Positions 30,883 to 32,598 of a DNA stretch of 32,598 nucleotides are shown in pieces. Under the pieces are notes generated by a model. That model made no database searches. It was not told the DNA's origin and worked only from the letters and a program-made list of their open reading frames with translations. This DNA is from Pseudomonadales bacterium (GTDB taxonomy: Bacteria > Pseudomonadota > Gammaproteobacteria > Pseudomonadales > Azotimanducaceae), in NCBI GenBank assembly GCA_030728785.1, contig JANQYP010000023.1, positions 1-32,598 of the forward strand, written 5' to 3'. Position 1 is the first letter of the stretch. Each line of letters opens with the position of its first letter. The position numbers and the translations under genes are program-made.

Positions 30883-31320
30883 GTGGACCAGGACATAACA
30901 GCAGCGCGAGAAAAGTTTCTGAACCAGGATTTTGATGAAAAATCATTTTCTGTTCCTGCCGAAAAAACCATTGAATATGCCCGCCTGTGTGGCGAAACGG
31001 CAGAGCGTTTTTTGGATGCCAGCCATCCGGATTTCCAGGCACCACCGACTTACATTGCCAGCCTGAGTGGCAGTCGGGCCTTGCCGGAAGGATTCCCACG
31101 TTTTGGTATCGGCATGGATGCGGGCAAAGGTATTGAGTGTTTCCTGCCAGTGCGCCCCGGCACCACGATTACCGGCCGCACCCACCTGCACGACATTTAC
31201 AGCAAAACCGGGCGCTCCGGGCGTATGGTTTTTGCCGTATCGAGAATTGCGTTTTATGACGCCGAGGGAAATCTTCTGGCGAACTCTGACAGCCGGGTTG
31301 TGATGCGGGAGAAGAGCTGA
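30883..31320 (+). CDS. MaoC-like/FAS1-type dehydratase N-terminal domain protein
   Basis: 145-aa hot-dog-like ORF: TIEYARLCGETAERFLDASHPDFQAPPTYIASL; IGMDAGKGIECFLPVRPGTTITGRTHLHDIYSKTGRSGRMVFAVSRIAFYDAEGNLLANSDSRVVMRE. Confidence 0.83.
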   Translation: MDQDITAAREKFLNQDFDEKSFSVPAEKTIEYARLCGETAERFLDASHPDFQAPPTYIASLSGSRALPEGFPRFGIGMDAGKGIECFLPVRPGTTITGRTHLHDIYSKTGRSGRMVFAVSRIAFYDAEGNLLANSDSRVVMREKS

Positions 31321-31736
31321 TGGCGATTAGCACAATACAGGAAGTTGTTTTTGGTGAAGACCTGCCCACCTTTGAGCCCGACACATCACTGGCCACTACC
31401 AGGCAGTTTGCGGCCCTGGTGGGTTGGGGTGGTGCCCGCTTCAGCGACCACGAGGCGGCTCGCAAAGAAGGTCTGGCCGGCGCCATGGTGCCGGGCATTC
31501 TCAACCAGGGCTACCTGGTAGCCATGATCCACCACTGGGCACCGAATGCCGAGATCAAAGCCATCGACACGGTCTTTCGAGCGCCCGTGATTGCCGATGA
31601 AAAACACACCATTTCCGGTGTGGTCACAGACGTTAACGAAGCAGATGGCCAGGTGGAGATAGACCTGACCGTGGCTAACGAAAAGGGTGAGACCCGGGTG
31701 TTTGGCACGGCGACGGTGCAGTTGCCGATCGCTTAG
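31320..31736 (+). CDS. MaoC-like dehydratase domain protein
   Basis: 138-aa hot-dog-like ORF overlapping the previous stop by 1 nt (TGATG); GGARFSDHEAARKEGLAGAMVPGILNQGYLVAMI. Confidence 0.83.
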   Translation: MAISTIQEVVFGEDLPTFEPDTSLATTRQFAALVGWGGARFSDHEAARKEGLAGAMVPGILNQGYLVAMIHHWAPNAEIKAIDTVFRAPVIADEKHTISGVVTDVNEADGQVEIDLTVANEKGETRVFGTATVQLPIA

Positions 31737-31745
31737 GGATGGTTT

Positions 31746-31925
31746 CGAGTAGCGAGTAGCGAGTAGCGAGTAGCGGGTTGCGAGGGGGGGTGGGGCTTCT
31801 AGCTTCTAGCTGCTGGCAAAAGCCTAAGAGGCGCTCTCGCTCGCGACTCGCAACCCGCCCCTCGCCCCTCGCTTCTGCCAGCAGCTAGCAGCCAGCAGCT
31901 AGCAGCCGCCCCCCACCCCCCCCAT
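31746..31925. repeat. Heptanucleotide-phased repeat island A with inverted arms
   Basis: 6 heptads 31746-31787 (cgagtag x4, cgggttg, cgagggg); 4 heptads 31797-31824 (ttctagc x2, tgctggc, aaaagcc); 10 heptads 31841-31910 (tcgcgac ... agccgcc). Confidence 0.93.
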
Positions 31926-31984
31926 TGATATTCAACCAGACTGTCCCAATCTCTGTGCTCACCATTCCCTCTTAAGGATTTACC

Positions 31985-32485
31985 ATGTCTCTGTATGCCG
32001 TTGCTGTACCCACGTTCAAGCGCACCCTGACCAGTCTGGCGGCGATTCTGAAGAAGGCTGAAGCCTTTGCTGAAGAAAAGAAGATTGATCCATCTGTACT
32101 GGTAAACGCCCGGCTGGCACCAGACATGTTTCCGCTGAAGCGCCAGATTCAGATTGCTTCTGACTCTGCTCGTCGCGGTACTGCCCAGTTGGCGGGTATC
32201 GAAGCACCCGTGATGGCTGACACCGAAGAGACCTTTGCTGAGTTGCAGACCCGTATCAGCAATACTATTGCCTTTCTTGACAGCCTCAAGCCTGCGCAAT
32301 TTGAAGGTGCCGAGGACAAGACCATTACCCTGCCAGTGGCCGGTACCGAAATTAAATTTGATGGCACCACTTACCTGATGTCATACGTGATGGCGAACTT
32401 TTCGTTCCACTCGGTCACGGTTTACAACATCCTGCGTCATAACGGCGTCGCGCTGGGCAAGATGGATTACCTCGGTAAGCCTTGA
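31985..32485 (+). CDS. DUF1993 domain-containing protein
   Basis: MSLYAVAVPTFKRTLTSLAAILKKAEAFAEEKKIDPSVLVNARLAPDMFPLKRQIQIASDSARR...FSFHSVTVYNILRHNGVALGKMDYLG. Confidence 0.9.
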   Translation: MSLYAVAVPTFKRTLTSLAAILKKAEAFAEEKKIDPSVLVNARLAPDMFPLKRQIQIASDSARRGTAQLAGIEAPVMADTEETFAELQTRISNTIAFLDSLKPAQFEGAEDKTITLPVAGTEIKFDGTTYLMSYVMANFSFHSVTVYNILRHNGVALGKMDYLGKP

Positions 32486-32490
32486 TGGGC

Positions 32491-32598
32491 GAGCTACTAG
32501 CTACTAGCTACTAGCTTCTAGCTGCTAGGAGCGAGAAGCCAGTAGCCAGAAGCCAGTTACGAGTTACGAGTCGCGAGATGCACTCGTAGCTCGCAACC
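32491..32598. repeat. Heptanucleotide-phased repeat island B (continues to or past the window edge)
   Basis: 13 contiguous in-phase heptads 32491-32581: gagctac tagctac tagctac tagcttc tagctgc taggagc gagaagc cagtagc cagaagc cagttac gagttac gagtcgc gagatgc. Confidence 0.93.

Follow-up and report, generated by a model that had tools for sequence, protein, structure and literature searches.

Converging heptad arms behind genes: a probable hairpin-forming intergenic repeat in a Pseudomonadales bacterium

The two islands of degenerate heptads at the right end of the window, the whole stretch of 32,598 nucleotides analysed here, are probably copies, one complete and the other truncated where the contig ends, of a dispersed, fast-turning-over and hairpin-forming intergenic repeat that is tolerated at, or useful for, the 3′ ends of genes. 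The data directly show a dispersed repeat with converging arms, a bias in location, stable folding, a slippage signature and absence from congeners. The window is contig C23 of the source assembly G000 (2.55 Mb, 72 contigs, 85% complete). The preliminary description of this DNA had recognised the heptads and overlooked the converging arms, the hairpin form and the location at 3′ ends and between convergent genes.

Island B reads GAGCTAC TAGCTAC TAGCTAC TAGCTTC TAGCTGC TAGGAGC GAGAAGC CAGTAGC CAGAAGC CAGTTAC GAGTTAC GAGTCGC GAGATGC. The count of 13 consecutive in-phase BAGNNNC heptads given earlier is exact, and the longest in-phase runs reached 2–3 units when the window was simulated 60 times with a Markov-1 model. 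Identity at lag 7 was 50 of 60 bases, the highest of all lags between 2 and 24, and no lag other than the multiples of 7 exceeded 36. An inverted arm (ACTCG TAGCTCG CAACC, 32582–32598) begins at the 3′ end of island B. As the right end of the window is also the end of the contig (G000:C23:1–32598), island B is incomplete and broken off at the start of this arm.

The mean difference was 1.5 bases between adjacent heptads of island B and 3.0–3.5 between units four to five apart (permutation p < 0.0002). This gradient of similarity between neighbours points to tandem duplication or slippage followed by point mutation. The 18 changes between neighbouring units were confined to positions 1, 4, 5 and 6, with none on the anchors 2, 3 and 7 (chance 0.0015, corrected for the choice of anchors). 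The proposed expansion with diversification was thus borne out, and with neighbours differing to this extent and with inverted arms the array is, as had been stated, not a simple microsatellite.

Island A was said to follow the same consensus with a strict 7-bp period. The listed units are all present, but they stand in separate blocks with phase breaks and not in a single strict array. Two of the blocks are oriented arms, another two are self-complementary, and a G-run and a C-run form a pair; the order is (GAGTAGC)4 GGGTTGC, G-rich run, TAGCTTC/TAGCTGC, spacer, inverted GAGNNNC, CAGCAGC/TAGCAGC and C-run (Table 1). In the predicted minimum-energy fold, the G-rich run is paired otherwise than with the C-run. 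The gene between the islands was correctly assigned to DUF1993, and both gaps beside it carry arrays. The flanking has no special tie to this gene, since arrays stand beside unrelated genes throughout the genome.

Table 1. Position, strand and basis of the features at the right end of the window.
Feature	Position	Strand	Basis
MaoC-like gene; TAG stop 10 nt upstream of island A	31320–31736	+	weak Pfam MaoC match below cut-off; syntenic in L077–L079
Island A, 5′ oriented heptad arm (GAGTAGC)4 GGGTTGC	31747–31781	+	sequence
Island A, match to hairpin model R1 (built only from another family's elements)	31754–31877	+	E 8.6e-9
G-rich run GAGGGGGGGTGGGG, complement of the C-run 31909–31924	31782–31795	+	complementarity read from sequence
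Almost self-complementary heptad block CTTCTAGCTTCTAGCTGCTGGC	31796–31817	.	sequence
Spacer/loop AAAAGCCTAAGAGGCGCTCTCGCTC	31818–31842	.	sequence
Island A, inverted heptad arm; minus strand CAGAAGC GAGGGGC GAGGGGC GGGTTGC GAGTCGC	31843–31877	-	sequence
Self-complementary heptad block CAGCAGCTAGCAGCCAGCAGCTAGCAGCC	31879–31908	.	sequence
C-run GCCCCCCACCCCCCCC, closing island A	31909–31924	+	sequence
DUF1993 protein gene; TGA stop 5 nt ahead of island B	31985–32485	+	PF09351, E 9.4e-61
Island B, 13 in-phase BAGNNNC heptads	32491–32581	+	sequence, lag identity, simulation
Partial hairpin element; converging arm from 32582, ended by the contig end	32547–32598	+	R1 match E 1.3e-4, cut off at 3′

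Units of the form GAGTNNC on one strand were followed by GAGTNNC on the opposite strand, which gives converging pairs. Because oriented heptads always occurred in such pairs, every array is read as one arm of a hairpin. The clearest pair was found at locus L130 (GCGAGTTACGAGTTACGAGT - loop - CTCGTAACTCGTAACTCGTAACTCGC), where a 25-bp stem is followed by CAC-T7. Among 40 genomes, the strict converging pattern GAGTNNCGAGTN{8,38}ACTCGNNACTC occurred at one locus in G000, at 13 loci in G307 (14 pattern matches) and at a single locus in G386 and another in G405; arms in the diverging order were matched in none of the 40. Eight of twelve islands folded more stably than their dinucleotide shuffles with z between -2.4 and -6.3 (island A -2.4, island B -5.0, L130b -6.3), and the other four (L123, L132, L133 and L126) folded no better than shuffles. 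The structure of the hairpin elements paired 95% of cells, compared to 21–43% when it was slid.

In genus g128, which belongs to a different family of the same order, the elements are clear palindromes of the form (GAGTNNC)n GAAANNC AAAACCGGTTTT GNNTTTC (GNNACTC)n. Their unit vocabulary is that of island B, e.g. GAGTTGCGAGTAGCGAGTAGCGAGTAGCGAGTTACGAGAAGC. The anchors of opposing g128 arms agreed in 224 of 240 cells. Compensatory pairing of the two variable bases was not found in opposing g128 heptads (32/96 complementary vs 0.40 across elements, permutation p 0.93). As complementarity of the inner bases is not above chance in this genus, perfect stems are not selected.

The covariance model R1 was built from twelve g128 elements only. 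It matched both islands of the window, island B up to the contig end, as well as L123, L124, L127, L129, L130 and L131, and gave 17 matches in the whole genome G000 with the window islands included. No R1 match was obtained in the congeners G003–G005 or in 248 kb of sequence from congeners and G007. At E <= 1e-4, just three of 121 genomes of the family, a set with all five congeners in it, had a match, and the five congeners were not among the three. In another genus of the family (L287, G072:C24), a related array of CGAGTCC/CGATTCC units together with a converging ACTCG arm was observed.

Within G000, in-phase BAGNNNC runs of five units gave 20 matches at five places and the reversed pattern none. 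With the wider pattern BRGNNNC and four units, 63 matches at about 17 places were counted against 13 for the reversed-pattern control. The suspected dispersed intergenic family with fixed anchors and varied inner bases is therefore present elsewhere in the genome. Its copies sit close behind genes: the first heptad lay between 3 nt before and 10 nt after the end of the stop codon at ten of eleven measured sites and 28 nt away at the remaining one. Arrays occupied 6 of 39 convergent gaps vs 2 of 165 other gaps (Fisher p 7e-4) in a 420-kb sample of G000 that was partly chosen for containing arrays, a choice not expected to bias orientation. In some cases, the genes on either side of an array are co-directional or divergent.

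The stop codon ahead of the arrays was TAG in nine of eleven cases, the one at 31736 of the window among them, vs 30% in the genome sample (p 5e-4). At L127 and L134, the TAG stop forms the first three bases of a heptad.

In the congeners L077, L078 and L079 (SAR86-labelled, K189A clade, UBA4475 records), the DUF1993 protein is 87–90% identical and the gene order is kept, and the arrays are absent. A cassette border around DUF1993, as suggested before, does not agree with this conserved order nor with the arrays beside unrelated genes. Upstream of DUF1993, the congeners have about 90 bp of plain sequence; downstream, a perfect GC hairpin lies between A- and T-runs and between convergent genes. 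Comparable orthologous junctions of other array sites were also without arrays. Terminator-like GC hairpins take the place of the array in congeners at the site of island B, at L129 and at L130b, with a T-tail at the first two. A home-made terminator finder detected few terminators anywhere in G000, and more in divergent than in convergent gaps; hence the exchange of terminator for array rests on these three sites as read by eye. Among the g128 congeners, about 3 of 21 orthologous junctions retain the element or a remnant, from which whole elements appear to turn over fast.

Taken as a dispersed repeat, the element would consist of two facing in-phase arrays, 5′-(GAGTNNC)n - loop - (GNNACTC)n-3′, with extra, almost self-complementary TAGCNGC/CAGNAGC blocks in the copies of G000. 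The arms would lengthen and shorten by tandem slippage in steps of 7 bp and drift by point mutation, and those anchors that pair across the hairpin would be held. Copies may be gained and lost quickly and kept where they are least harmful or most useful, namely, behind stop codons and between convergent genes. Transcription, a termination or 3′-end role and the mode of copy spread or mobility are parts that we infer. If the repeat has a role, it is probably that of a hairpin at transcript ends; the transcribed hairpin would most likely act as an mRNA 3′-end or terminator-like structure which stands in for a terminator or protects the 3′ end. A more far-reaching version can be offered only tentatively. 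In it, undescribed mobile heptad-armed hairpins, which families of the order would share because they spread horizontally or emerged more than once, would colonise gene 3′ ends and supplant intrinsic terminators, and repair or slippage would keep the anchors of both arms in step while the inner bases vary.

The main rival, a rather doubtful one, is a neutral, selfish hairpin repeat of MITE or REPIN type, moved by some other machinery, for which the 3′-end position is simply where insertions are tolerated. It accords with the copy numbers in G307 and G405 (at least 150 strand-matches each, ~75 copies or more), with the patchy occurrence among families and the mostly empty orthologous sites, and with two g128 loci of G405 (L206 and L259) in which heptad hairpins are nested, as though in the loop of a REPIN, within longer palindromes that form a GTAG-type REP-like pair (L259: CTGTAGGAGC...GCTCCTACAG). 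However, clean insertion junctions or target duplications were not seen, and both Y1-transposase (RAYT-like) genes of G000 are flanked by other repeats; such genes also occur in array-free congeners.

Plain heptanucleotide microsatellites, newly arisen by slippage in each genome independently and with inverted arms from template switching at existing terminator hairpins, are an unlikely source. The similarity gradient in island B and the hairpins already present at congener sites fit such an origin. So does the frequency of long perfect heptad SSRs in the order, where in-phase runs of at least six units were found in 62 of 394 genomes, many of them such SSRs. It does not account for the recurrence of CGAGTNN anchors and converging order in separate families, nor for the recovery of one family's elements by the other family's model at E about 1e-12. 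Perfect (GAGCTAC)n microsatellites of ~40–50 units abut ORF ends at L211 (G307) and L214 (G442), and both of these genomes also have degenerate hairpins.

It is very improbable that the heptads are binding sites of a DNA- or RNA-binding protein which recognises the anchors at each 7-bp step. The kept anchors and free inner bases speak for it, and a comparable proposal exists for the TAACTGA repeats (PMC4679880); yet the sites are mostly behind genes and not at promoters or start codons, and both strand orientations are paired within one element. An assembly artefact can practically be dismissed: island B is at a contig end and the arrays in C42 and C70 adjoin N-gaps, but island A lies inside the contig with unique flanks, and other genomes, G307 and G405 among them, show the same architecture in long contigs.

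Cyanobacterial STRRs had been named as the nearest analogue, but the paired GGGAATC heptads of Xanthomonas are closer (PMC4692102). The repeats GGGAATC (GGGANTN) of Xanthomonas and GGGGA(C/T)T of Nostoc are intergenic arrays of 2–26 degenerate 7-bp units which lie within 50 bp of stop codons or overlap them and vary in length between relatives (Rehm et al. 2015, PMC4692102). Converging pairs number about 70 per genome in Xanthomonas, and no repeats of this kind turned up in other gammaproteobacteria; transcripts started or stopped in the quadruplex-forming repeats more often than in a control set (PMC4692102). Converging pairs on opposite strands, the intergenic position near stops and the degenerate 7-bp unit are shared with the repeats described here. 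These differ in the unit, which is GAGTNNC/TAGNNGC instead of GGGANTN with only the variants GGGTTGC and GAGGGGC being G-rich, in the strong bias to convergent genes in G000 and in the host. As most units are without a GGG tract, the heptads are not quadruplex repeats. They are of the same kind as those of Xanthomonas and not members of that family, since they differ in sequence and host and lack the defining G-tract. The repeat is a real relative of the Xanthomonas-type paired heptameric repeats, and apparently one that has been undescribed so far. In the literature searched for unit sequences and for heptameric hairpin repeats, none was found outside Xanthomonas, Nostoc and Beggiatoaceae. 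In agreement with the expectation of an uncatalogued repeat, the islands matched no Rfam family at the gathering score; they gave just weak sub-gathering matches to hairpin-shaped miRNA models, so that a known RNA family was rejected.

In many bacteria, heptameric repeats are over-represented; they still lack an explanation. A second, sequence-unrelated case of the Xanthomonas anatomy, with converging degenerate heptad arms right behind genes, suggests that what such repeats have in common is pairing of the arms and the 3′-end position rather than a G-quadruplex sequence. As the equivalent junctions of the congeners hold plain hairpins or nothing, each of them offers a test of what the gain of an array does.

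Intrinsic (Rho-independent) terminators resemble the repeat as GC hairpins right after the stop that are often bidirectional between convergent genes, whereas the repeat usually has no U-tract and far longer stems of slipping heptads. Neither a terminator-like match nor a U-tract was found at the window islands (31700–32598), which were thus not identified as intrinsic terminators by a GC stem with a T-run. TAACTGA repeats of Beggiatoaceae (PMC4679880) and cyanobacterial STRRs are likewise intergenic heptamer arrays with patchy distribution, but the TAACTGA arrays are sequence-invariant direct repeats mostly just upstream of start codons (PMC4679880). BLAST searches for the g128 element on plasmids or phages gave no match, and island B gave only chance-level matches to plasmids.

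REP, BIME and REPIN elements with RAYT (PMC3733652, PMC8266576) are also dispersed intergenic palindromes at gene ends with many copies; in contrast, the arms here are heptad tracts of variable length, and a GTAG/CGTC-tagged short palindrome is not the unit. Membership in the REP/RAYT system was rejected, as the flanks of the RAYT-like genes at C9:103346 and C54:6340 are without heptads. The repeat that does flank these genes (L250 and L251) is a different one and resembles GGGGTCAGAGCCAAGTGCC.

Apart from the heptads, 14-bp tandem repeats were observed at 1–55 (GGGACGCCCAGTCG x3.9, at the contig start) and 2240–2291 (CCCCTGCAGGTCAC x3.7) of the window. Tandem repeats with a period of 12–15 are abundant in the genome sample, and several scaffold N-gaps bear the identical repeat on both sides.
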